A stretch of DNA of 64,000 bases from an uncultured Pelagibacteraceae bacterium (GTDB taxonomy: Bacteria; Pseudomonadota; Alphaproteobacteria; Pelagibacterales; Pelagibacteraceae), in the NCBI GenBank assembly GCA_902518835.1, contig CABYHH010000002.1:1-64000 (forward strand). Reading direction: 5' to 3'. Position 1 is the stretch's first letter. Every line of letters starts with the position of its first letter. Below the pieces are notes generated by a model. It worked only from the letters and a program-made list of their open reading frames with translations, had not been told where the DNA came from and ran no database searches. This document shows, in pieces, positions 48,015 to 62,259 of this stretch. The position numbers and the translations under genes are program-made.

Positions 48015-49481
48015 ATGAAAAAAGATAAAAAACTAAATCCAGAGCTTGCTTTAGGATTTACAGATAGAAAAGGTGATGAATTATTAGTTAAAGATCGTTT
48101 AATTGAAATCATCAAAAAAAATTTTCAACTTTACGGATTCGAGCCTTTAGATACACCAGGATTTGAGCTGTCAGAGAATATTGGTAAATTTTTACCAGAT
48201 GAGGATAGACCAATGTCTGGAGTTTTTGGTTTTAAAGAAAAAAGCCAATGGTTATCATTAAGATATGATTTAACAGCCCCGCTTGCACGTTATGTATCAA
48301 GGAACTATAGAGATATTTCAAGACCTTTTAAAAGATACCAAATAGGAACTGTTTGGAGAAATGAAAAACCAGGCCCTGGAAGATATAGGGAATTTACACA
48401 AATTGATGCAGATATTGTTGGAACAAAAAATATTTATGCAGATGCTGAGCTATGCATGTTGATGGCAGATACCTTAATTAAATGTGGTTTAGAAAAAGAT
48501 AGGTTTATAATCAAGATTAATAATAGAAAAATATTTCAAGGAATTCTTGAATTTTTTGAAATAAAAGATCCAAAGCAAAGTTTAACTATACTTAGATCAA
48601 TTGATAAATTTCAAACTGTTGGAAAAAAAGGGGTATTAGAACTTTTAACAAAAGGAAGATTAGATAAATCTGGTGATTTCACTAAAGGGGCAAATTTAAA
48701 AAAAGAGATAGCCGAAGAGATTTTTGAATTATTATCTGCTGACTCAATTATAAGAGATAAAAAAACTGGCGTATGTAGACTATCAGCAGGTGACTCATTA
48801 TTTAAAATTGAGAACGATACGTATTTAGAGGGATTAAAAGAAGTTGATACTATTTTAAATTATTTGGGTGAAAATAAAGAGGTAAATATAATGAGCACAG
48901 ATTTATCATTTAAACAAGATATGATTAATTTTCAAATGGATCTATCCGTTGTAAGAGGTCTAGAATATTATACTGGCACAGTAATGGAGGCAGAGACAAC
49001 TGATACTTCATTTTGGAAATCATCAAGAGACGCAAATGCATTTAAAAAAATAAAATTGGGTTCACTTTCTGGTGGGGGCAGATTTGACAAACTTGTATCA
49101 AGGTTTTTAAATGATGACTATCCATCTGTGGGAATATCTATTGGTCTTGATAGAATTTTAATGCTTTTGAAAGATAAATATAAAGATCAAACATTAAAAA
49201 ATCCTATAATAATTTGTGTTTTCGACAAAAATTATTTTTCAAAATACAATGAAATTTTACAGACACTAAGATCAGCAAATATCAATTCTGAAATTTATAT
49301 TGGAGATGGAAATCTAAAATCTCAAATGAAATACGCAGATAAAAGAAATGCTCCAGCTGTAATTTTTTGTGGTGACAATGAAATTAAATCTGGAAAAATT
49401 ACACTAAAAAACTTGAAGTCTGGAGATGAAATTTCTTTAGAATTAAAAAATCTTACTAATGAAATCAAAAAAATTATCTAA
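48015..49481 (+). CDS. hisS: histidyl-tRNA synthetase
   Basis: SLRYDLTAPLARYVSRN, VRGLEYYTGTVMEAE, GGGRFDKLVSRF. Confidence 0.95.
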   Translation: MKKDKKLNPELALGFTDRKGDELLVKDRLIEIIKKNFQLYGFEPLDTPGFELSENIGKFLPDEDRPMSGVFGFKEKSQWLSLRYDLTAPLARYVSRNYRDISRPFKRYQIGTVWRNEKPGPGRYREFTQIDADIVGTKNIYADAELCMLMADTLIKCGLEKDRFIIKINNRKIFQGILEFFEIKDPKQSLTILRSIDKFQTVGKKGVLELLTKGRLDKSGDFTKGANLKKEIAEEIFELLSADSIIRDKKTGVCRLSAGDSLFKIENDTYLEGLKEVDTILNYLGENKEVNIMSTDLSFKQDMINFQMDLSVVRGLEYYTGTVMEAETTDTSFWKSSRDANAFKKIKLGSLSGGGRFDKLVSRFLNDDYPSVGISIGLDRILMLLKDKYKDQTLKNPIIICVFDKNYFSKYNEILQTLRSANINSEIYIGDGNLKSQMKYADKRNAPAVIFCGDNEIKSGKITLKNLKSGDEISLELKNLTNEIKKII

Positions 49482-50520: not shown

Positions 50521-51202
50521 AGAAATAATTAACATAGGATGTGTTTCTAAGGGTAGGTTAAAAATTCAATCTGAACAATTATTAAAAAGAAAAAAACTTA
50601 AAATTTTTTTTGACAGAGGTGATAGAGAATTAATTGGCAAAGTCAAAGGTCGTCCAGATATTTCTGTATCATTTATGCATGCAAGAGAAATATTAGATCA
50701 ATTATCTATTGGAAATTTGGATATTGGTATAAGTGGATTAGACCTTTTAAAAGATTCCGAAGCAAATGTTCAAAAAAATATCAAGATAGAAAAAAAGCTT
50801 AAATTTGGGTTTGCAAATTTGATTCTTGCTTGTAGGAAGGAATTCATTGACTTGTTTACCACTCTAGATCTTGATGAAGTTGCAGAAGATTATAAAAAAA
50901 AGAATAAATCTTTATTAAAAATTGGAACAAAATACCCAAATCTCACAAGAGAATTCCTTTATTCAAGAGGTGTTACCAACTTTACTATAGTTAAGTCACT
51001 CGGTAGTACAGAATTGATGTGTGCAATGAATACCGCACAACTTATATCCGATATTACAAGCTCTGGTGACACACTTAAGCAAAACAACCTTAGAATACTT
51101 AATGATGGAGAAATTCTAAAATCTCAAGCCTGTATATTTAGTTCAAAGAAAAGTAAGAAAAAAAAAGGATTAAAAAGTTTAATAAGATTACTTACCAAGT
51201 AA
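50504..51202 (+). CDS. hisG: ATP phosphoribosyltransferase, short form
   Basis: 232 aa; DISVSFMHAREILDQLSIGNLDIGISGLDLL; TKYPNLTREFL. Confidence 0.93.
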   Translation: MEFMSKEIINIGCVSKGRLKIQSEQLLKRKKLKIFFDRGDRELIGKVKGRPDISVSFMHAREILDQLSIGNLDIGISGLDLLKDSEANVQKNIKIEKKLKFGFANLILACRKEFIDLFTTLDLDEVAEDYKKKNKSLLKIGTKYPNLTREFLYSRGVTNFTIVKSLGSTELMCAMNTAQLISDITSSGDTLKQNNLRILNDGEILKSQACIFSSKKSKKKKGLKSLIRLLTK

Positions 51203-51319
51203 TTTGTCTTTAAAGTAAATAAGAATAATCTTAATAATATCCAGGTTTCTTAATACAGCGTAGCACCCAATAATCAGCAAAAATATTAAAAAAATTTTAA
51301 ACATAAAAATTAAGTCCAT
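51188..51319 (-). CDS. small hydrophobic (single-TM) ORF, 43 aa, absent from supplied ORF track
   Basis: Reverse strand MDLIFMFKIFLIFLLIIGCYAVLRNLDIIKIILIYFKDKLLGK*; convergently overlaps hisG 3' end. Confidence 0.45.
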   Translation of the reverse strand: MDLIFMFKIFLIFLLIIGCYAVLRNLDIIKIILIYFKDKLLGK

Positions 51320-51348
51320 AAAAAATTCTAATCAATTGATCAAAGTAT

Positions 51349-51717
51349 TCAATATTTATTTCGCCAATAGTACTCTTTACTTCTTATTGTATCGCATTCA
51401 GAACAATTACTTCTTTTTTTATTAGTCGAACCATATTTATCATTTGGAAACTCATCTAATGATTTAAATTTTTTACAAATTGAGCATTGCAATTTATCAT
51501 TTTTATATTTTTTTTGATTACCAACATTTTTGAATATTAAACCTTGTCTTTCGGTCTCTGACCTTGTTAATATTTTGATTTTGTTATTTTTTCCTTCTCC
51601 TCTAAGATCTTTTTTAGTCCAGGTTGGATGTTGGTTAATTATTTTTTGAATTTCTTCGTCACTTCTAGTAATCCATTGATTAGAGCCCTTTGGATTTCTA
51701 TTAAAATTTTTAACCAT
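51349..51717 (-). CDS. zinc-ribbon (CxxC...CxxC) protein resembling the N-terminal region of HNH endonucleases
   Basis: CSICKKFKSLDEFPNDKYGSTNKKRSNCSECDTIRSKEYYWRNKY; 5 bp from the Dcm stop. Confidence 0.6.
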   Translation of the reverse strand: MVKNFNRNPKGSNQWITRSDEEIQKIINQHPTWTKKDLRGEGKNNKIKILTRSETERQGLIFKNVGNQKKYKNDKLQCSICKKFKSLDEFPNDKYGSTNKKRSNCSECDTIRSKEYYWRNKY

Positions 51718-51722
51718 AAATT

Positions 51723-52916
51723 TTAATCATTAAAATTAAATTTCATTTGTGGTCCTAATTCTTCTTTTCCTGTGAAGTATAAATCTTTACCTTTTGCCTT
51801 TATCATCCAGTCATGATGATATGAGATTAGTTTTTTATTTTCTTTTAGGGTCTTTTTGACTGCTTTCATTATTTTTTCTGCTCCTAATACAGGTACAGCC
51901 ATTCCAATTTGTCTTCTAACAGATTCTTTTCCCCCTACAAAATTGTAGGTGAATGGAAAAGTTTGTAAAGTTGCTCGCTCTCTATTAGTCAATGCTCTAT
52001 TTTCTTTATAATGATATACATGCGTTCCACCACCTCCACTTCCTGTGACAGTATAGGCAGGTTTAGAACTATCTAGTCTTTTATAGATGTGGCTCATTCT
52101 TGCTTTTTTAACTCCAGGAAGACCGTCTTCATCGTCACCTAAATCCCATACATTTTTACCTTCAGCTGTTTTTTTTAGTCTTCTTATAACTCTTTCATCA
52201 TGTTTAGTTTTTTCCGTATGTTCCATTCCATCAGGAATCTCATTCAAAGCTTCTTTACATGTCTTGAAAGGCCCTTTATTTTTTTCAGGTTTTTCAAAAT
52301 TAATTTTATTTTTCCTAAAATAATCTTCTCTAAAACCAACAAGTATAATTCTATGTCTTGTTTGAGGTATGCCGTATTCTTCAAATTTGTAATTATCTGC
52401 ATAAATCCTATATCCATGTTTAGAACAATTGGCTAAATCACCCATTATCTTTTTAAAATTTTGATAATTTTGGTTTTGAAGTTTTTCTTTATTAAAAACT
52501 TCTTTTACTAATACTTGTTCTGAAGAATTAAATTTAAGTTTTTTACTTAAAGAAGTAACATTTTCTGCAACAAAAAATTCTGGTTCAAAAAAGTTAAGAA
52601 CTTTACATGCATATCTATAAAGTCCTCCAAATTTCCCCTCCATTTTTTTGTTTTTTCCAACTAGACTAAAATCATTGCAGGGAAATCCAAATAAAAGACC
52701 ATTAATTTTTCCAAAATCTTTCTTTACTTTTTCGAGCCTTTTCGGCTTTGAAAAATCCTCTATTTTTTCATGAAAAGCCTCACATTTTTGATTATTTTTA
52801 AAGGTTTCACAAGAATCTTTATGAATATCAACTCCCCAAATATGCTTAAATCCTGCCCTTTTAGCTCCTTCAGCAAAACCTCCAGCTCCACAAAATAATT
52901 CAGCAATTTTTAACAT
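51723..52916 (-). CDS. DNA (cytosine-5-)-methyltransferase, Dcm-like
   Basis: Motif I AELFCGAGGFAEGAKRAG, IV FPCNDFSLVG, VI FVAENV, VIII QTRHRIILVGFR, C-terminal LTNRERATLQTFP. Confidence 0.95.
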   Translation of the reverse strand: MLKIAELFCGAGGFAEGAKRAGFKHIWGVDIHKDSCETFKNNQKCEAFHEKIEDFSKPKRLEKVKKDFGKINGLLFGFPCNDFSLVGKNKKMEGKFGGLYRYACKVLNFFEPEFFVAENVTSLSKKLKFNSSEQVLVKEVFNKEKLQNQNYQNFKKIMGDLANCSKHGYRIYADNYKFEEYGIPQTRHRIILVGFREDYFRKNKINFEKPEKNKGPFKTCKEALNEIPDGMEHTEKTKHDERVIRRLKKTAEGKNVWDLGDDEDGLPGVKKARMSHIYKRLDSSKPAYTVTGSGGGGTHVYHYKENRALTNRERATLQTFPFTYNFVGGKESVRRQIGMAVPVLGAEKIMKAVKKTLKENKKLISYHHDWMIKAKGKDLYFTGKEELGPQMKFNFND

Positions 52917-53015
52917 AGAACTTGACTTTCTTGTTTATTTATTGTACTAAATACATATACTATTTATATATACTTTACAAATATATTTAAATAACTATAT
53001 ATTAAATAATTATTT

Positions 53016-53321
53016 ATGGAAATGAAAAAAATTGTTGATTTTAGAGGTCCAAGAAAAAAAACAAAAGGCTGGGGCCCAGAGAAAAAATTTAGAGAATTTG
53101 CGGCCATTAGAGTCCCAAAATTACTAAGAGCATTAAAAAATGTCCAAAACTTATCCACAGTTTACAATGAAAAAACTAAAATTGGCTACAGATATTCTGA
53201 TGCTGAAAGAAAGAAAATTTTAAAAGATGTTAAGGAAGCTTATCAAGCTATGATGAAGGCTTGGGAGAATGCAGGTAAAAAAATTAAAGAAAAAGAAAAA
53301 AAATCATATTGGGATGAATAA
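53016..53321 (+). CDS. small conserved-looking hypothetical protein, first ORF divergent to dcm
   Basis: 101 aa, REFAAIRVPKLLRALKNVQNLSTVYNEKTKIGYRYSDAERKKILKDV; coding-like composition. Confidence 0.65.
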   Translation: MEMKKIVDFRGPRKKTKGWGPEKKFREFAAIRVPKLLRALKNVQNLSTVYNEKTKIGYRYSDAERKKILKDVKEAYQAMMKAWENAGKKIKEKEKKSYWDE

Positions 53322-53486
53322 AATTAATAAATTTGACGAATTGATGCACATTAAAAAGAAGGGGTTATCATACACGGTATACAGCTATATCGATAGAACA
53401 TCAGGGATACCTCTTGCCAGCGTGCATCCTGGTTTTCTATTGCCCTCATGTTCAAAAGTTGTTTTAAGCATGTTAACTATGCAAAC

Positions 53487-53543
53487 TTTAATGCGTGCAA
53501 AGCTACAGCTTTCTTTCTTTCTATGTAGCTTGTACGCGTTAAA
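53487..53543 (+). other. long imperfect hairpin upstream of 53566 ORF
   Basis: tttaatgcgtgcaaagctaca / tgtagcttgtacgcgttaaa: about 20 bp incl. two GU pairs, one bulged A, 16-nt pyrimidine-rich loop. Confidence 0.7.
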
Positions 53544-53565
53544 AAATAACCACAAAGGAGTTTAA

Positions 53566-53850
53566 ATGAAAAAAGATTATTTCCATTCTTGTTTACAGGA
53601 TAGATTGCAATACGCTCAAGAGTTTGCAAAAGATTACACAATATACCTACGAAGTGTTGAATTTACAAAAAAAGCAGAATCAGAGTTTTATAGAAATAAT
53701 AAGATATTATTTTTGTTAAACAAAATTCTTAATTTACCAACTAATACACTAAAATTTTTCAAAGTTTTAAAAAGCAGGTTTATTTTGAGCAAATGCCTAA
53801 ATGAAATTGAGGTGATCAAAAAAGAATTAAAGGCTTACGAGGAAAATTAA
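53566..53850 (+). CDS. hypothetical protein, 94 aa
   Basis: Good SD (aaaggag) upstream; 1-bp overlap with the GHKL ATPase start. Confidence 0.65.
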   Translation: MKKDYFHSCLQDRLQYAQEFAKDYTIYLRSVEFTKKAESEFYRNNKILFLLNKILNLPTNTLKFFKVLKSRFILSKCLNEIEVIKKELKAYEEN

Positions 53851-55982
53851 TGCTAAAATTTATTCCTGATAAATACTCTGGTGGAAAAGTAATAGATCCA
53901 ACCCCACATCAAAAATTTGAAAAACCTGATAACTGTATTTTAGAGTGTGTTCAAAATGCAATTGATGCTGCTATCGAACAAAATAAAGAAAGGAAAACAA
54001 CTAAATTAAGTTTTCAATTCAAAATGATTAAAAAAGATGATTGTTCATTTTTTGATAAAAACTTTGAAAAACATCTTAATGAAAGAAGATATAACAAAAG
54101 AACAAATTTTACGTCTGATATTCCATGTTTAATTATGGAGGATTTTAATACAACTGGTATTACTGGGGATCCTGAAAAACTTGATGAGGAGACTGACTCA
54201 GGAGAGAGAAATAATTGGTATTATTTTCTACATGACTTTGGAGGTAAATCAAAACTTGAAGATCATACTAAAGGAGGAAGTGAAGGTGAAGGTATGCAAA
54301 CTTTCATGCTTAACTCAGGCATATCAACTTTTTTTGGTCTTTCAGTTGATTCTACGAACAATAATAGAGCTAGTATTTTTGGAATGTCTTATTTCGGTTC
54401 AAGAAAAGTTGATGGTTTAAGATATGGAGTTTTTGCTTCTTTTGGAAAAGAAAAAGAAATAGATGGAAACAAAGAATGTGTACCAGAAAACGATCCTACT
54501 AAAGTAAAAAATTTCATTACTCTTTTTGGTTTAAAAAGAGGCATTTCTGACTCAGGGACGAGTATTATTATTCCTTTTTATAATAGAGAAGAAATAGATG
54601 AAAAATTTATTATTCAGAAACTTTTAGATATTTACAGAGTTCCGATTTTTAGAAATCAACTTGAAGTTCAAGTAGGGAGTGTAACAATAAATCATGAAAC
54701 AATTCAAAAATTAGCGATAGATAATGAAGAAGGCCTTGCAAATAAAAGATTATGTGACGATTATTTTAATTTTTTATCTGAAATTAAAAACAGACCAGAC
54801 AGCACTAATACTTACGAATTAGTTTTTTATGATCAAGATGATTTAAAAAAACAAGACATAAGTTCATTTGATAAATTAGTTGAAGAGTTTAATTCATATA
54901 AACTATTGCAACTTCGAGTTAAATTCCAAATTAAAAAGTATCAACAAAATTCTAAAACAAGAACCATAGACTCTCATACTTATTATGATGTTTTTTTTAA
55001 GAAATATCCAGCAGCAGTGGATAACCTAAGAGAGACATTTAATGATTTTATTAGAGGGCCAATGCCACTATACAAAAGAAGAAATAAGCAGTGTACAATG
55101 TTTCATTTAGTAGATGTGCAAGATAAACATGTTGCCCTTTTGTTTAAACACGCAGAACAAGCTAACCATTCAGAAATTAGTGCTGATAACTGGAAATTAA
55201 AAGAAGATTATAAAGGTTTTAGAAAGATAATTCTTTTATCAAGAAATATAACCACAAAAATTTATAGACTTATCACCCTTGAGAATACCGAAGAAGATTT
55301 TGAGGCTACTCAGGATCTTTTTAAAATCAACGAAGAAGGTTTTGGTCAAAATGAGGAAGATGAGGATCTAGGAGTTGATGAAGAAAACAAAGAAGAAAAA
55401 GAAAATAAAGACAAATCAAAAACAAAAGTTACTCATATTATTGTTCCACCAATATTTAAAGGATTAAAGAAATATGAAGTGTCTCAGAATAACGAAAAAG
55501 ATGGCACTATAACATACAAATTAAAAGGAATTTCTTATGATAAAAATAAAATTAAAGAGTCAATTGAAAAAGCACAGAATTATTTGGAAGAAACAAAAAA
55601 AATAGATATTACAAAATACACAGATGAACTAGGTAAGAAACAACTAGATCTAATGCAAACAACCATCGCAAAGTATGAAAAAAGGATAATCGAATACCAA
55701 AATTTTTTGACTGATGGCTGTACATTTTTTCCAAGAAGAATTGTGATCGAAGCAGCTTATGATTCCGAGGGGTTATCAAATCCTTTTAAAAGATACAGTA
55801 TCAGAGATTTTGATTTTTCTGATGAAGAATTCAAAATAAATATGAAAAATGTCAAAGGTATAGAAAAAAATTATAATCAAATTGTTTTTTTTGTTCACGA
55901 TCCAAAATTTGAATTTAGTGTAAATGGTTTTGGTGAAGGAATTGAAGATATAAGATGGAGAGATAGAAATTATAGCTTATAA
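53850..55982 (+). CDS. GHKL (MutL/MORC/Hsp90-type) ATPase, 710 aa
   Basis: N-box ECVQNAIDAA, G1-like EDFNTTGITG, G2-like GGSEGEGMQTF, later GTSIIIPF; acidic low-complexity linker NEEDEDLGVDEENKEEKENKDK. Confidence 0.8.
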   Translation: MLKFIPDKYSGGKVIDPTPHQKFEKPDNCILECVQNAIDAAIEQNKERKTTKLSFQFKMIKKDDCSFFDKNFEKHLNERRYNKRTNFTSDIPCLIMEDFNTTGITGDPEKLDEETDSGERNNWYYFLHDFGGKSKLEDHTKGGSEGEGMQTFMLNSGISTFFGLSVDSTNNNRASIFGMSYFGSRKVDGLRYGVFASFGKEKEIDGNKECVPENDPTKVKNFITLFGLKRGISDSGTSIIIPFYNREEIDEKFIIQKLLDIYRVPIFRNQLEVQVGSVTINHETIQKLAIDNEEGLANKRLCDDYFNFLSEIKNRPDSTNTYELVFYDQDDLKKQDISSFDKLVEEFNSYKLLQLRVKFQIKKYQQNSKTRTIDSHTYYDVFFKKYPAAVDNLRETFNDFIRGPMPLYKRRNKQCTMFHLVDVQDKHVALLFKHAEQANHSEISADNWKLKEDYKGFRKIILLSRNITTKIYRLITLENTEEDFEATQDLFKINEEGFGQNEEDEDLGVDEENKEEKENKDKSKTKVTHIIVPPIFKGLKKYEVSQNNEKDGTITYKLKGISYDKNKIKESIEKAQNYLEETKKIDITKYTDELGKKQLDLMQTTIAKYEKRIIEYQNFLTDGCTFFPRRIVIEAAYDSEGLSNPFKRYSIRDFDFSDEEFKINMKNVKGIEKNYNQIVFFVHDPKFEFSVNGFGEGIEDIRWRDRNYSL

Positions 55983-55984
55983 AT

Positions 55985-56839
55985 ATGACACAAGTAGTAT
56001 CTAACAGAACAGGAAGAGAAAAGATAATTACCGCCGAAGGTGAGAATACTGAATTTTCAGTAGAAGTTAAAAAACAAAAAAATTTACTAAGAGTGAGATC
56101 TTCTATAAAATTAAGCAAAGATCACAATTTTAAAGATTATTATAAAATTTTTCTACAAGCTTATGAGTCAGGAGGAATAGCTAAAGAGCCTTGGTCTTTA
56201 GGTACCGTTGGTGATACAGGAGAATTTGAATTTAGTATTGATAATATTAGTTACGATACATTATTATTTAGATTAAAAATTATAGATAGTTCTAATTTTG
56301 TAAAAGGATATGCAGAAGAAATAAGACCTAACGTAGAAAGTAGTGGGAAGGATAAAAGATCAAATGATTCAGAAATTTCAAACACACTCCTTCCTATAAG
56401 AGAAACAGATAAAATTTCATTACCATTTGCTGTTGAAATGAGTCCGGATAGTAAACCTATTTTGTTGGTAAAAAGTAAGTTAAATTTAAAAGAGCAGTTT
56501 AAGCACGATATTAAAACAAAAGTTTTTATTTATACTTCTGTAATAAAACAAATCTTAACAATTTATCTATCAGATAATAATTTTAAAAATTGTTATGAAA
56601 AAAAAAGGTTTATCAATAAAGTCATAAGCAATACTGGAACAGATCCAGATCTTGTAGAAATTCCTAATTATTTTGATGAAAATAATAATATCAATCAAGA
56701 AGCACTAGATTGGATAGATAATATTACATCTGAATGTTTAAATAATCCTGTGGAGTTTAAAGGTAAAAAAATTAATTACATAACTGTTTTTGAAAAATAT
56801 TGCAGAGAAGAAAGGTTTGACGAAGAAGATGAAGATTAG
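55985..56839 (+). CDS. hypothetical protein, 284 aa, partner of GHKL ATPase
   Basis: Immediately downstream (2 nt); no recognised motif. Confidence 0.75.
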   Translation: MTQVVSNRTGREKIITAEGENTEFSVEVKKQKNLLRVRSSIKLSKDHNFKDYYKIFLQAYESGGIAKEPWSLGTVGDTGEFEFSIDNISYDTLLFRLKIIDSSNFVKGYAEEIRPNVESSGKDKRSNDSEISNTLLPIRETDKISLPFAVEMSPDSKPILLVKSKLNLKEQFKHDIKTKVFIYTSVIKQILTIYLSDNNFKNCYEKKRFINKVISNTGTDPDLVEIPNYFDENNNINQEALDWIDNITSECLNNPVEFKGKKINYITVFEKYCREERFDEEDED

Positions 56840-57617
56840 AAAGTTTAATTCAGAGGGTCATAATAAATGGGTAGAATTATATAATGAGTTATTTGTAGAG
56901 ATAAAAAGAATTTCCAAAGGATCAAAAATTTCTCCAGAGGATATTAAGAAGGGGTACAACAAACACTTTAAAGAAAAATATGAATTAATAAAAAATTCAA
57001 ATGATTTTTCTGAAGAATTGTCAAATAGTAAAGATTTTAAAGTTAAAAATTTCGATAACTCTTATGAATTAGCAAAAAGCATCAATATTGCTTTATCAGA
57101 GTATAACTTTTATGAAATAGATAGATCAGAAATTTGGGATTGGATTGCGATGATCTTATTTGATCAAATTTTTGTTCCAGGAAAAATCAGGGGAGCTTCT
57201 CCATATAGATATGTTGTAAATATAAACGATTTTTTTACTAGTTTTAGACATTTAATAAGAGGTCCTTGTTGGGCAGAAAATCAGTTTAAAGAAAATTCTA
57301 AGATTTTTACACATACAAAGCCATATCAGCAAAATGACTGGCTAGAGCAATTTATTAAAGTTTCTTTTTTAAGAGAAATGAAAGTTATGGGACAAGTTTG
57401 TTCAGAATTATATTTCGACTATAAAAAAAATGAGGCAATTCAAGGAACTAGTAAAGCTCCAGGTAATGACCCTGATAAGCCAGGAATTTTTCCTAGATTA
57501 AGAAATAAATTATCACAATTTAATAAAGTAAAATATTTATGGGGAATGAGTGCAGAAGAAATAATCAAGATGCTACCTAAGGAGTTTAATAATTACAAAA
57601 AGAATATTACAAAATGA
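56829..57617 (+). CDS. hypothetical protein, 262 aa
   Basis: MKIRKFNSEGHNKWVELYNELFVEI...; start at 56829 overlaps previous stop. Confidence 0.75.
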   Translation: MKIRKFNSEGHNKWVELYNELFVEIKRISKGSKISPEDIKKGYNKHFKEKYELIKNSNDFSEELSNSKDFKVKNFDNSYELAKSINIALSEYNFYEIDRSEIWDWIAMILFDQIFVPGKIRGASPYRYVVNINDFFTSFRHLIRGPCWAENQFKENSKIFTHTKPYQQNDWLEQFIKVSFLREMKVMGQVCSELYFDYKKNEAIQGTSKAPGNDPDKPGIFPRLRNKLSQFNKVKYLWGMSAEEIIKMLPKEFNNYKKNITK

Positions 57618-58093
57618 ATTCAACTTTTGATTTATTAATAAAAAATTTAGAAACTTCTCATAAGGATAGACTTCTGTGGTTTCAAAAAAATAAGAATGAA
57701 GAATTTAATGGATGGTTACCTAGTTATGATGAAGATAAACTTTTAGCCACTAAGGCAAAAGGTATTTATAAACCAAAAGAATTAAAATATGCTTTAAGTA
57801 TTAGAATGACAAAAGATGGCCCTTATGAAGATAAAATTGAAAATAAAGAAGAAAATAAAGTATTTACAATAAAATATTTTCAAGAAAATAAAAATATTAG
57901 AGAAAGAGATACAGAGTATACAAACCTAGGATTAAAAAAATGTATGATTGATAATGTACCTATTGGAATTATCAAACAATTAGAAAAAAAACCAAATAGT
58001 AAGTACCAAGTAATTGGAACTGGAATAATAAAAAAATGGGAAAATGGATATTATCATATAAATGTTTTTGATGCCCAGGGAGAAATTGGATGA
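57614..58093 (+). CDS. hypothetical protein, 159 aa; possible DNA-recognition/REase-associated domain
   Basis: ATGA overlap with the previous gene and with vsr; LATKAKGIYKPKELKYALSIRMTKDGPYEDKI ... VIGTGIIKKWENGYYHINVFD. Confidence 0.7.
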   Translation: MNSTFDLLIKNLETSHKDRLLWFQKNKNEEFNGWLPSYDEDKLLATKAKGIYKPKELKYALSIRMTKDGPYEDKIENKEENKVFTIKYFQENKNIRERDTEYTNLGLKKCMIDNVPIGIIKQLEKKPNSKYQVIGTGIIKKWENGYYHINVFDAQGEIG

Positions 58094-58458
58094 GCATTTC
58101 AAAAAATACCAAACCAGAAAAATTAATTAGATCTAAACTATATAAAAATGGTTATAGATTTAGAATTCATGTAAAAAAACTTCCTGGTAAACCAGATATT
58201 GTTCTGCATAAACATAAAACAATTCTAAATGTTCATGGTTGCTATTGGCATTATCATGGCTGCGCTCATAGCAATGTGCCAAAGACAAAAACTCAATATT
58301 GGATAGAAAGATTAGAACTTAATAAGAAAAGGGATTTTGTTAATAAAAATAAATTAATAAAATTAGGTTGGAAAGTCATTGATGTATGGGAGTGTACTTT
58401 AAAAGGAAAGAATATTGATAAAACTTTTAACACTCTGGAACGTCTAATCATTGCCTAA
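58090..58458 (+). CDS. vsr: Vsr-type (very short patch repair) endonuclease
   Basis: NTKPEKLIRSKLYKNGYRFRIHVKKLPGKPDIVLHKHKTILNVHGCYWHYHGCAHSNVPKTKTQYW. Confidence 0.93.
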   Translation: MSISKNTKPEKLIRSKLYKNGYRFRIHVKKLPGKPDIVLHKHKTILNVHGCYWHYHGCAHSNVPKTKTQYWIERLELNKKRDFVNKNKLIKLGWKVIDVWECTLKGKNIDKTFNTLERLIIA

Positions 58459-58474
58459 AGATATATATCAAATA

Positions 58475-58741
58475 ATGGATAAAAGTTACTTAATGGAGCT
58501 GAAACTATCAGAATTAAAATCAGAAAATCAAAAAGAAGTTTTCTTTAGATATTTATCTATCGCTGAGCATTATATTTCAACTGAAAATGAAAAGGAGGCT
58601 GAGAAGATTTTAAAAAATTTGGGCTATAATAAAAAAACCATCAAGTCATTCATAAAAACAGTTCAAAATCATGTTGCTTCAGAATTTCAAGACATGAAAG
58701 AAATTATGATGGGTAAGGTTCCAAAAAGGTTATTAAACTAA
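58475..58741 (+). CDS. hypothetical small protein
   Basis: MDKSYLMELKLSELKSENQKEVFFRYLSIAEHYI...; ATG at 58475 preferred over TTG at 58451. Confidence 0.6.
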   Translation: MDKSYLMELKLSELKSENQKEVFFRYLSIAEHYISTENEKEAEKILKNLGYNKKTIKSFIKTVQNHVASEFQDMKEIMMGKVPKRLLN

Positions 58742-58950
58742 TGCTAATTTTTAATTACAAATCCAAAAAAGAGCTCAAACAGAATATTGGAAAACCTCTT
58801 AATTATACCGAAACAAGTATATTTGGACCTGAGTATAAGGAAAGTGGAGTGTTAGTTGGTAGCAACAGACCTTATTCAACTGAGAATAAAGGACGTGAAT
58901 TTTTTGCAGAGGTAATAATAAAAAATAACATAATCGTAAAAGTAAATTGA
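58741..58950 (+). CDS. small conserved-looking hypothetical protein
   Basis: 69 aa LNYTETSIFGPEYKESGVLVGSNRPYSTENKGREFFAEVIIKNN. Confidence 0.65.
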   Translation: MLIFNYKSKKELKQNIGKPLNYTETSIFGPEYKESGVLVGSNRPYSTENKGREFFAEVIIKNNIIVKVN

Positions 58951-58992
58951 AAAAAACTTTAAATATAATCAAGGAGGTATAACATACGAATC

Positions 58993-60090
58993 ATGGATAC
59001 AATTTTAATAATAATTTTAGGTTTATTGCTTATAGCAACATTAGCAATTCTTTATTTGAACATTAAGTCTAAAACTAAAAAAGAAGATGAAAATAAAGAG
59101 GCTGAAGAAATAGCTAATTTAAATGCAGAAATTGTAAAACTCAAAGATAGCTTAAATGCTACAATCAATACCTCATTAAGTTCTATGTCTACTTCGTTTA
59201 ATGCCTTATCAACTGGTGTTACAAAAGACATGACTGAGGCTTTAACTAAGGTTGATGAAAAGGTTGGAAATTTTAATCAACAGGTTCAATTGCTAAATCA
59301 AAGCCAAGAAGGTATTACAAAAATACTTGCTGGTGTTAAGAAATATGGTGTTTTAGCAGAGAGCAGCCTTGATGCGCTTATGAGGGATTTATTACCCGCA
59401 TCTCAATTTATGACTAATGTGAAGATGAAAGAGGATACTAGTGAGAATGTGGAATTTGCTATCAAACTTCAAGGAGATGTTTTGGTCCCAGTGGACTCTC
59501 ATTTTCCGGTAGAAAAATTTAAAGCAATTACTGATGCACATGAGGCAGATGATAAAAAAGCAGTTGCTGATGCTAGAGCAAAATTGGCAAGCGCTTTTAA
59601 GTTGAAAGCAAAAAGCGTTAATGAGAAGTATATAGTACCACCAAAAACAACTGATTTTGCCATTGTTTATGCAGCCTCAGAAAGTCTTTACAGAGAATTA
59701 ACCGAGTATCAAGATCCAAGTACAAAAGAATTACTCACTCAAGAATTGATGAGAAAATATAAAATTGTTATTTGTGGTCCTAATACCCTGTCAGCTTATT
59801 TACAATCTTTACACATGGGTTTTCAATCATTGAAAGTTCAAAAAGGCGCAGTGGAAATTTATAACCATTTAAAAACAATCAGCACAAGATTTGCTAAACA
59901 TTTTGACAATGTAATAGTTTTAAGAAAAAAACTAGATGAAGCAATGAGTGTTGTTGATAAGTTTGGAACTGACGCAAGATCAATTACAAGAACTTTAGAA
60001 AATATTAAAGATCCCGAGCAAGTTGAAAAAGCCATACTAACGGAGAACGTTGAGAATTTTGTTGAGAGAAATAAACAAGTTAAAAAATAA
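58993..60090 (+). CDS. rmuC: DNA recombination protein RmuC
   Basis: N-terminal TM, coiled coil, PVDSHFPVEKFKAI, IVPPKTTDFAIVYAASESLYREL. Confidence 0.92.
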   Translation: MDTILIIILGLLLIATLAILYLNIKSKTKKEDENKEAEEIANLNAEIVKLKDSLNATINTSLSSMSTSFNALSTGVTKDMTEALTKVDEKVGNFNQQVQLLNQSQEGITKILAGVKKYGVLAESSLDALMRDLLPASQFMTNVKMKEDTSENVEFAIKLQGDVLVPVDSHFPVEKFKAITDAHEADDKKAVADARAKLASAFKLKAKSVNEKYIVPPKTTDFAIVYAASESLYRELTEYQDPSTKELLTQELMRKYKIVICGPNTLSAYLQSLHMGFQSLKVQKGAVEIYNHLKTISTRFAKHFDNVIVLRKKLDEAMSVVDKFGTDARSITRTLENIKDPEQVEKAILTENVENFVERNKQVKK

Positions 60091-60127
60091 TTTCTTTTTT
60101 CACATATTACCGACTATAAGAAATCAC

Positions 60128-60814
60128 ATGCGCTGGAATAAGAAATACAATTATCCATCAAGTTCAAGGGCTACCGAAGATGGAATAAGAAGATATGTTT
60201 TAGGAGAGGCAAAATTACCAAGTGTAACGTCAATACTTGATGCAACAAAGTCAGAGGAGGATAAAGCAGCGTTAGCAAATTGGCGAGAAAGAACTGGCCA
60301 TAAAGAGGCTGAAGCTATTACAAAAGCGGCCAGTAGTAGAGGTTCTCAGATGCACAGCTATTTAGAATCTTTTCTTTTAGGAAGAGAAAATTTAAGTTTC
60401 TTTGAAGATAGTGAACAATATAAAAAAATGGCAAAAGAAATAATTGACAAAGGTTTAACAAACAGATTAGAGGAAATATATGGTGTGGAATGTACAATGC
60501 ATTACCCTGAAAAATATGCAGGAACAGCAGATTGCGTTGGTGTTTATGAGGGAAAAGAAACTATTATTGATTTCAAACAATCCAATAAACCAAAAAAAGC
60601 TGAATATATAGACTCTTGGTTTTTACAAACTGCTGCTTATTCTTTAGCACACAATGTTGTTTATAATTCAAATATCAACGCTTGCGTTGTTCTTGTATGC
60701 ACTGTAGATAATTTGTTTCAAGAGTTTAAAATTCAAGGACCTGAATTAGTAACTTATCAAAATTTATTTCTTGGAAGACTTAAAAAATTTAATGAACTTA
60801 CAAATTTGGAGTAG
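60128..60814 (+). CDS. PD-(D/E)XK-superfamily exonuclease, phage-like
   Basis: RGSQMHSYLESFLLG, EKYAGTADCVGVYEGKETIIDFKQS, SWFLQTAAYSLAHN; ATG at 60128 preferred. Confidence 0.82.
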   Translation: MRWNKKYNYPSSSRATEDGIRRYVLGEAKLPSVTSILDATKSEEDKAALANWRERTGHKEAEAITKAASSRGSQMHSYLESFLLGRENLSFFEDSEQYKKMAKEIIDKGLTNRLEEIYGVECTMHYPEKYAGTADCVGVYEGKETIIDFKQSNKPKKAEYIDSWFLQTAAYSLAHNVVYNSNINACVVLVCTVDNLFQEFKIQGPELVTYQNLFLGRLKKFNELTNLE

Positions 60815-60822
60815 TGTAAATA

Positions 60823-62259
60823 ATGGATAAAATAGTAATTTATGATACCGAAACAACCAATAGTACTATTTGGGGATCAATAATTGAAGTAGGTGCTGTT
60901 GTTGTTGATAAAAATCTTAAAGAGATTGGAAAATTAAATATCAGAGGCAGAATGCCAGAAGGAGAGGTGCCCAGTGCAAAGGCCTTACTTGTTAATTCAA
61001 CTAGCATTGATTTACTTACCAAAGGCAATTATTCACATTACGATTTTTTAGGTGCTGTTGAAAATTTTTTCACAAAGTGTGCTCCCGCAGTATTTATGGG
61101 TTGGTCAAATTTAAATTTTGATCGAAGAATGTTCCACTTTAATTTTTTTAAGGGTAATCGGTATCCTTATGCTACCCACTCATCGCCCAATAGTGAACAT
61201 GATGGTTTGCACATAGCTAGAGCAGCCCAAACATTAAACTCAGAGACCCTAAAAACAGAGCTAACCGAAGCAGGTAATCCAAGTCTTGCTTTGGAATCTT
61301 TGTCTAGAATGCAAGGTTTTGACACTTCAGCTAGCCATACAGCCTATGTTGATGCACAGAATTCACTGAAGGTTTTAAGAATTATAAAAGACAAACATAA
61401 AGAAAATTGGGATACGTTTTTAAAGACATCAACAAAGACTAGCGTTGAAACATTTTTAAAAAATGAAGGTATTTACTCAGTATTTGAAAATGTGAAGGGT
61501 AGAAATATGATGTATCTTACTGGCACTCTTCATCCAAATCATTGCTTTCATCCATCTTATGCATCTTGGGGATATGTTTGGGATTTAAGAAGGGATCCAG
61601 AACCATTATTAAACTTAACGGTAAATCAATTAAGAGATGTACTAAAAAAATATAGTCCTAAGGCTTTGAGAGTTTTAAAAACTAATAAAGCTCCAGTAAT
61701 TTTAGACAAACAATTCGCTATTAAACAGAAACCTTATTCAGATTTAGATTTAGTAACAATTCAAAAAAGAGCAAAACTTGTTAGAGAAAATGAGAATTTT
61801 TGTAAGAATATTCAAGTTATAAATAGAGAAGCTGCAGAGGAAAAGGAGCAAACAAAAACTCAAGAAGATTTATTACCAGAGGAAACTCTTTATGAGAAAT
61901 TTATTCCAAACAGAGATACATCATTATTTAAAACATGGCACAGTTCGTCATGGGAAGATAAATTAAGAATGTTAGATAAATTTACAGATAAAAGATGTAG
62001 TTGGTTTGGACAAAAAATTATTTATCAAGAAGCTCCTCAAATTTTGCCACCTGATTTATATAAAAATATTAAAAGTGAAATCGCAAGACGGATTCTAAGT
62101 AAAAACAAAGAAAAATGGCAAACTGTTAATATGGCATATACTGAAATTGATTATTTAAGAGATCAAGCTTCAAATAGAGATGATGAAAAAGAATTAAAAA
62201 AATTAGATGAAATTAATGAATTTATTATGTCGATTGAGAAAAAATATGAAATTACCTAG
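60823..62259 (+). CDS. sbcB: exodeoxyribonuclease I-like (DEDD) exonuclease
   Basis: IVIYDTETTNSTIWGSIIEVGAVVVD, GWSNLNFDRRMFH, SHTAYVDAQNSLKVL. Confidence 0.85.
   Translation: MDKIVIYDTETTNSTIWGSIIEVGAVVVDKNLKEIGKLNIRGRMPEGEVPSAKALLVNSTSIDLLTKGNYSHYDFLGAVENFFTKCAPAVFMGWSNLNFDRRMFHFNFFKGNRYPYATHSSPNSEHDGLHIARAAQTLNSETLKTELTEAGNPSLALESLSRMQGFDTSASHTAYVDAQNSLKVLRIIKDKHKENWDTFLKTSTKTSVETFLKNEGIYSVFENVKGRNMMYLTGTLHPNHCFHPSYASWGYVWDLRRDPEPLLNLTVNQLRDVLKKYSPKALRVLKTNKAPVILDKQFAIKQKPYSDLDLVTIQKRAKLVRENENFCKNIQVINREAAEEKEQTKTQEDLLPEETLYEKFIPNRDTSLFKTWHSSSWEDKLRMLDKFTDKRCSWFGQKIIYQEAPQILPPDLYKNIKSEIARRILSKNKEKWQTVNMAYTEIDYLRDQASNRDDEKELKKLDEINEFIMSIEKKYEIT

Follow-up and report, generated by a model that had tools for sequence, protein, structure and literature searches.

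Between hisG (ending at 51202) and rmuC (starting at 58993), the window studied here, a 64,000-nucleotide stretch of contig CABYHH010000002.1 from an uncultured Pelagibacteraceae bacterium, carries an accessory island (51203..58992) whose core is a tightly overlapping gene triad, A-B-C. This triad, with or without a fourth gene, D, has been exchanged in place among SAR11 lineages, and the neighbouring Dcm-type methyltransferase and its putative recognition region have been kept. A role for the island in anti-phage defence is likely on sequence grounds, and we assign a probability of about 0.6 to the locus being a restriction-like anti-phage system of the paraMORC2/PDC-M33 kind. The defence reading draws on the recurrence of the triad, its PADLOC PDC-M33 matches, its intact GHKL and ExxxH motifs and the nucleases found beside it in other genomes, as well as on a hotspot that can hold an alternative island of defence-like genes, cassette replacement, purifying selection and conservation of the Dcm recognition region across both cassette types. 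The hotspot and the cassette exchange are new relative to an earlier note on this DNA.

With respect to layout, every gene listed in the earlier note is present. The minus strand encodes a small zinc-ribbon protein of 122 aa (51349..51717) and the Dcm-type C5 cytosine methyltransferase (51723..52916). On the plus strand, a small protein 5′ of the ATPase gene, designated s (53016..53321), is followed by a putative 98-aa ORF (53269..53565) with a counterpart at the same place in the SAR11 locus L053, and by o94 (53566..53850), a SAR11 small protein 82-88% identical in L053-L055. The genes for the 710-aa ATPase A (53850..55982), its partners B (55985..56839) and C (56832..57617), the rare accessory protein D (57614..58093), a Vsr-type endonuclease (58090..58458) and the small SAR11 island proteins E96 (58451..58741; 94-99% identity in L053-L055) and F69 (58741..58950) then form a continuous plus-strand run of overlapping or near-abutting ORFs, as the note had described for the stretch up to about 58458. 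In unsaturated SAR11 comparisons the island ORFs show dN/dS values of ~0.03-0.11 (about 0.09 for o94 and 0.03 for E96), indicative of purifying selection; together with the intact homologues, this rules out a chance array or decaying genes. The ORF s is no filler but a conserved component of these loci, present at 19/97 of them in two variants that sort independently of ATPase type. The zinc-ribbon protein has a weak endonuclease VII/HNH-like match (phrog_1035, E 6e-5), and its homologue adjoins hisG in a different, unrelated island at the same site in L150 (E 1e-23). It may therefore be tied to the hotspot and is not necessarily part of the ATPase system in which the note had placed it.

The GHKL motifs of A (E32/N36/D39, D98..G103, G143..G146.G148 and G236) are each retained by 94-96 of the 96 homologues, window included, and A matches the PADLOC model PDC-M33A directly (E 1.2e-15), which supports the original call of a GHKL ATPase. 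Pfam gives no HATPase domain match in A and, at its cut-offs, leaves A, B, C and D all unrecognised. The ExxxH hallmark of paraMORC2 occurs in 95/96 homologues (E436/H440 in the window), and the MORC motif GhXhhpXXRhl is absent from window A and present in only 1/96. Judged by these motifs, A is a member of the paraMORC2 family (Iyer, Abhiman and Aravind 2008; PMC2292703) with a predicted S5 region, and the missing motif rules out MORC proper as its identity; the description of A as MORC/MutL-type thus holds for a MutL/MORC-related GHKL protein and fails for MORC itself. Fusion proteins joining A, B and C, sought as proof of interaction, were not found, nor were copies of A or D in viral contigs.

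The three proteins that the note could not recognise, and to which it looked for any missing functions, differ in kind. Two of them, B and C, belong to the core and have predicted folds unlike those of nucleases; D is a rare accessory. Profile-profile alignment with hhalign joins B to the PDC-M33B group (E 8e-6, prob 84) and C to the DUF6339, or PDC-M33C, group (E 2e-5, prob 77); the PADLOC models of PDC-M33 B and C give no direct hmmscan match to either window protein. AlphaFold yielded structures for both proteins (284 and 262 aa). B is predicted to combine an Ig/FN3-like beta-sandwich with a helical domain (pLDDT 86), and Foldseek of this model gives no fold support for a hidden nuclease. 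C is predicted with confidence to be all-helical (pLDDT 94.7, pTM 0.90), carries Trp, His, Arg and Gln residues that are invariant, and in Foldseek shows neither a structural match in the PDB nor any nuclease resemblance; a nuclease concealed in C, though conceivable, has no support from its fold. Neither B nor C has a known toxin fold. D gives Pfam SAD_SRA matches of E 0.006 and 0.011 (16.8 bits, below the 30.7 cut-off), and its best PDB profile match is the SUVH4 sequence (E 0.06, weak). Over its full length D is ~40% identical to the N-terminus of an HNH_2 protein from Rhizobium (L146, 7998-8954), which differs in carrying a fused HNH nuclease domain that D lacks. D is thus possibly an SRA-like DNA/5mC reader, a tentative suggestion. 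A separate search aimed at genuine SRA proteins for comparison retrieved none and had no positive-control match.

Among known systems, the closest is PDC-M33, an unvalidated PADLOC candidate whose gene order and sizes equal those of window A-B-C. Its B and C models strongly match relatives of window B and C (C being DUF6339), whereas the window proteins themselves are too divergent for these models and are joined to them only by profile-profile comparison; the window also has Dcm, Vsr, s and D in addition. On this sequence evidence A-B-C is a divergent copy of PDC-M33, with a constant core of ATPase, B and a DUF6339-like C. Our literature search found no paper naming PDC-M33 or DUF6339. In the available part of Iyer et al. 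(PMC2292703), paraMORC2 GHKL-S5 ATPases with ExxxH are described as laterally mobile and tied to Dcm, Vsr and restriction nucleases, features shared with the window; that part of the main text does not describe constant B/C partners, an SRA-like accessory, a hotspot or cassette exchange. A putative type I system of Z1, PD-(D/E)XK and C5-methylase genes includes 'three additional genes' (PMC9523054; Nat Commun 2022) that could be A-B-C. One locus, L025, links this system and mzaABCDE to the present family by combining Z1 (MzaC) and MzaD-like genes with A-B-C and Dcm, whereas the window lacks Z1, MzaD and AIPR. For VcSduA, a Shedu-type paraMORC3 nuclease, the GHKL ATPase has been proposed to govern the attack on DNA during phage defence (PMC12137116); there nuclease and ATPase share one protein, whereas in window A no nuclease domain is recognised, and B and C accompany it.

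A survey of homologous loci, a motif-based and non-random sample on which all neighbourhood counts rest, located A at 97 loci, counting the window itself, and as a rule B and C follow it immediately: B was identified at 65 of these loci, C at 74, Dcm at 49 and Vsr at 33. The triad, mostly with 1-4 bp overlaps, is spread over many bacterial and archaeal phyla, and the nucleases beside it include EcoRII (10 loci), MvaI (3), MutH of the MutH/Sau3AI type (1) and AIPR (1). The association of the ATPase with Dcm and Vsr therefore extends well beyond this contig. Some family loci carry Z1, and most A loci found have no Z1 homologue, so that the Z1-free form is common and not a reduction. The note's 'reduced or variant' Mza relative is accordingly better described as a divergent PDC-M33 than as a reduced Mza system. 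Its observation that Z1 and AIPR are missing stands: no Z1 was found in the 86%-complete source genome (the search control matched in one genome), and the island proteins gave no match to AIPR or MzaD.

The island is accessory rather than core SAR11 content. In 31 of 35 other relatives with hisG and rmuC close together on one contig, the interval between them is only 20-827 bp, and the remaining four hold an unrelated island of 8.7-9.9 kb with putative defence genes. The block was absent from 150 relatives by tblastn (0/150), and a pattern search of GTDB found five SAR11 carriers. The surprise that the note had attached to a SAR11 occurrence is lessened by the figure legend on gene neighbourhoods in Iyer et al. 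(PMC2292703), which already includes Candidatus Pelagibacter among its species. Comparison with L054 and L055 delimits an exchanged cassette (53829..58098), inside which there is no nucleotide similarity and just outside which identity is 79-87%; the breakpoints fall within or next to the genes on either side. Close relatives have swapped A-B-C(-D) only and retained Dcm, Vsr and the flanks; between the window and L054, Vsr is 97% and A 31% identical. L054 and L055 come from SAR11 genomes that have diverged from each other, yet the DNA of their A-B-C-Vsr genes is 99-100% identical (Vsr 100%), as against 79% for Dcm; their cassette is therefore a recent in-place transfer.

Both remaining enzymes match the families to which the note had assigned them. 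Dcm matches Pfam DNA_methylase (E 1.8e-57) and TIGR00675, has intact catalytic PC, ENV and QxRxR motifs, and keeps a putative target-recognition region that is near-invariant in six SAR11 copies across both cassette types. Vsr matches TIGR00632 above cut-off (8e-35) and E. coli Vsr structures (2e-27), and its conserved acidic and zinc-binding positions line up with E. coli Vsr (1cw0). Profile searches recognised no cognate endonuclease of a classical type II restriction-modification system in the island, and EcoRII-C was not found in the genome by a search that had no positive-control match. Vsr is the sole intact recognisable nuclease in the island.

Taken together, these observations suggest the following mechanism. 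Dcm, by family membership, would methylate a short motif in host DNA. A would act as an ATP-driven GHKL-S5 dimer clamp in one complex with its constant partners B and C, engaging incoming DNA that lacks the mark or bears another feature of infection, and ATP-dependent clamping would recruit or activate a nuclease. In some family loci this could be the adjacent EcoRII, MvaI, MutH/Sau3AI or AIPR; in the window either Vsr would cut, or it would only repair Dcm-induced T:G mismatches and the effector would be a protein not yet recognised. Since the exchange leaves Dcm and its putative recognition region in place, the methylated motif is probably unchanged, and the driver of the exchange may be phage counter-measures or the sensing of particular phages, not a change in site specificity. 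Against the defence reading, the literature examined reports no measured activity for the A-B-C family, PDC-M33 is a prediction, Pfam does not detect A-D at its cut-offs, and the only nuclease recognised in the island, Vsr, behaves as a Dcm companion. In addition, Dcm is not seen within ~9 kb in nearly half of the sampled loci, for some of them because of contig ends, and the sample is non-random.

The effector is where the alternatives divide. One narrower version of the favoured explanation gives A the part that MutL plays in very-short-patch repair: acting on Vsr, the A-B-C clamp would convert it into a restriction enzyme that nicks DNA without the Dcm mark. GHKL-nuclease partnerships of this type are proposed by Iyer et al. 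(PMC2292703), the functional positions of Vsr, the only candidate nuclease, align with those of the E. coli enzyme, and Vsr moved with A-B-C between L054 and L055. Nonetheless, Vsr follows Dcm rather than A (32/33 Vsr loci also have Dcm), is no more frequent at loci lacking the other tested nucleases (21/38) than at loci that have them (9/12), and stayed nearly constant across the swap between two A proteins 31% identical, which gives no sign that it co-evolves with a particular A; we consider this form rather unlikely. Comparably doubtful is the proposal that Dcm and Vsr are an ordinary modification-plus-repair pair and that A-B-C is its own abortive-infection or DNA-clamping effector, with C, the unclassified helical protein, as a candidate. 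Its appeal lies in the triad occurring, at roughly half of the loci, with no Dcm or Vsr detected, in a confidently folded C with no PDB relatives, and in a Dcm unchanged through the exchange, but the triad is repeatedly linked to Dcm and type II nucleases, neither B nor C has a known toxin fold, and some Dcm-less loci are short contigs.

A non-defence role, as a methylation-linked DNA repair or chromosome-maintenance module on a side branch of MutL/Vsr repair, is in our view very unlikely. Repair recruitment of some paraMORC-type proteins is suggested in PMC2292703, and a MutL-like ATPase beside Vsr does recall very-short-patch repair; the patchy distribution, plasmid occurrence, association with restriction enzymes, hotspot with alternative defence-like contents and exchange of A-B-C all speak against it. 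Returning to the restriction-like defence system, its most elaborate version is unlikely as a whole. In that version methyltransferase and target would remain fixed, ocean bacteria would swap the A-B-C±D sensor as an allele, the sensor and not DNA site specificity would be under arms-race selection, D would read methylated DNA and Vsr would be a repair enzyme turned restriction nuclease.

The three-gene constant core and the predicted folds of B and C give testable substance to a predicted class of bacterial and archaeal ATPase-restriction systems related to eukaryotic MORC proteins, and hisG–rmuC is defined as a SAR11 island hotspot. In some of the ocean's most abundant, streamlined cells, SAR11 provides a natural experiment in which closely similar methyltransferases accompany two ATPase cassettes ~31% identical, and in which a cassette has recently moved between diverged lineages. 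Swapping of the ATPase set with a kept methylase is consistent with a defence by DNA restriction that is being pushed to vary.

The block lies between hisG, which ends at 51202, and rmuC, which starts at 58993, on a 105-kb contig of a SAR11-type genome of 1.0 Mb that is 86% complete. Every gene listed for it in the earlier note was found in the window, and both Dcm (51723-52916, minus strand) and Vsr (58090-58458) scored above curated cut-offs in profile searches. The 284-aa B (55985-56839), 261-aa C (56832-57617) and 159-aa D (57614-58093) passed no curated cut-off and gave no significant E-value against Pfam, NCBIfam, PHROGs or PADLOC. The ATPase gene A (53850-55982, 710 aa) matches the A component of PDC-M33, a PADLOC candidate system (E 1.2e-15). 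Among 97 loci with A, the window counted, iterated profiles detected B at 65 and C at 74, in the order A-B-C with a usual overlap of 1-4 bp, and additional loci carry ORFs of fitting size and position that these profiles did not pick up. At locus L017 each gene of the triad hits its PDC-M33 counterpart (A, B or C), and C also matches Pfam DUF6339. In profile-profile comparisons, window-type B aligned with the PDC-M33B group (E 8e-6, probability 84) and window-type C with the PDC-M33C/DUF6339 group (E 2e-5, probability 77). Together with the identical gene order, these alignments argue that the window triad is a divergent PDC-M33, itself a predicted system.

With respect to the ATPase, the earlier note's MORC/MutL-type assignment stood in part: A has the complete set of GHKL motifs, but the MORC motif is absent from it and occurs in 1 of 96 A homologues, 95 of which carry ExxxH. 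By the criteria of Iyer et al. 2008 (PMC2292703), these two features make A a paraMORC2 protein of the GHKL-S5 family. Relatives occur on plasmids of Enterococcus and Priestia and in Proteobacteria (tblastn, PADLOC-family and alignment searches), and a pattern scan of GTDB genomes added Acidobacteria, Planctomycetes, Nitrospinota, Chloroflexota, archaea and others. The six SAR11 A proteins form a single supported group in a quick tree (SH-aLRT 100).

The relatives were recruited largely via two motifs of A, so the frequencies of neighbouring genes are not population estimates; many contigs stop inside its neighbourhood and the SAR11-type genome is itself incomplete. Within this sample, Dcm lies within ten genes in about half of the loci (49/97). 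EcoRII stands beside the triad in ten loci (L105, L121, L090, L076, L065, L077, L129, L060, L093 and L139) and an MvaI/BcnI-family endonuclease in three (L089, L091 and L066); each of these families has members specific for CCWGG, the sequence that E. coli Dcm methylates. MutH/Sau3AI and AIPR were each found in one locus, and a small protein, 's' (53016-53321 in the window), is located upstream of A in 19. Three loci without Vsr (L103, L114 and L135) link a large HSP70-like protein to A-B-C and Dcm; the one scanned (L103:6858-9830) combines HSP70 with a Swt1-like HEPN domain. A protein of ~900 aa precedes the triad in L025 and L026. In L025 it is a Z1 protein (MzaC) followed by an MzaD-like gene, which resembles the type I putative system that PMC9523054 describes as three core genes (Z1, PD-(D/E)XK and C5 methylase) plus three additional ones.

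In terms of mechanism, gene content, conservation, linkage, exchange and selection were observed directly, and as families Dcm enzymes methylate cytosine and GHKL-S5 ATPases are ATP-operated dimer clamps. A, B and C would assemble into a clamp/sensor complex, which would use a nuclease against DNA that is unmarked or foreign. Vsr is a tentative candidate for this nuclease. Of the 33 loci with Vsr, 32 also carry Dcm, and among the Dcm-bearing loci Vsr is present in 21 of the 38 without any tested nuclease (of 50) versus 9 of the 12 with one. Vsr thus goes with Dcm and does not stand in for a nuclease that is absent. An activity within A-B-C that our searches failed to recognise is likewise a tentative proposal, and the predicted folds of B and C appear not to be nuclease-like. 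The AlphaFold model of C is all-helical (pLDDT 94.7, pTM 0.90), with no PDB match below E 1 in Foldseek, and that of B (pLDDT 86, pTM 0.66) begins with a beta-sandwich of ~95 residues, followed by helices, that locally matches Ig/FN3-like domains (best E about 3e-4). An unlinked enzyme elsewhere could also serve the clamp/sensor complex.

D, which among the 97 loci is confined to three (the window, L051 and L052), matches SAD_SRA weakly (E 0.006; 0.011 for the L051 copy), has SUVH4 as its best PDB profile match (E 0.06) and shares ~40% identity, from end to end, with the N-terminal half of an HNH_2 protein from Rhizobium. The natural reading is a putative SRA-like reader detached from its nuclease. 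The fused protein, on a Rhizobium plasmid (L146:7998-8954), is possibly a stand-alone modification-dependent nuclease.

In 35 other relatives with hisG near rmuC on one contig (distances read from two tables), the gap is 20-827 bp in 31 and 8.7-9.9 kb in four (G051, G003, G004 and G039). By eye, window and empty sites are alike directly after hisG and in the last bases before rmuC. These four genomes carry an alternative island (L149, L150, L151 and L152), which in L149 holds an AAA_15/OLD-like ATPase with a partner, a sigma-70 region 4 protein, NurA, HerA and a small hydrophobic protein; L150-L152 have similar gene orders, and these islands are possibly an undescribed HerA-NurA defence system. 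PADLOC recognises their HerA, otherwise only distant AAA families. A homologue of the zinc-ribbon protein (51349-51717, minus strand) adjoins hisG in the unrelated island L150 (1305-1757), so this protein may go with the site and not with the ATPase system; the L150 copy resembles chiefly the N-terminal half. Beyond the island, rmuC, a PD-(D/E)XK_1-like gene and an exonuclease I-like gene (58993-62259) form a nuclease trio kept together in most SAR11 relatives inspected, but rmuC was found in just 41 of 101 relatives.

Window and L054 DNA are 83-87% identical from hisZ through 53828 (Dcm 85%), show no detectable similarity between 53828 and 58099, and return to 83-87% identity from 58099; L053 and L055 break likewise, and D falls inside the exchanged stretch. 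Protein identities are 31%, 29% and 36% for A, B and C versus 89% for Dcm, 97% for Vsr and 99% for both E96 (58451-58741) and rmuC. Between L054 and L055, A, B, C and Vsr are 99.3-100% identical in DNA among diverged genes (hisG 66%, Dcm 79%, rmuC 80%), which shows a recent, in-place transfer of A-B-C-Vsr between these lineages. The two forms of 's' (window and L053; L051, L052 and L055) assort independently of A type. Nearby, hisS (48015-49481) is only 42-48% identical to the L053-L055 copies, and the adjacent hisZ and hisG are 86-92% identical to L054; hisS is possibly another local allele replacement. The dN/dS ratios are low, indicating purifying selection, both for window/L054 (Dcm about 0.08, Vsr 0.11, E96 0.03, o94 at 53566-53850 0.09) and for L053/L054 (A 0.04, B 0.06, C 0.10). 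In Dcm, the putative recognition region hardly differs between the two cassette types. From its conservation while the triad was replaced, we infer that selection would act on the triad's sensing or on escape from phage inhibitors rather than on site specificity.
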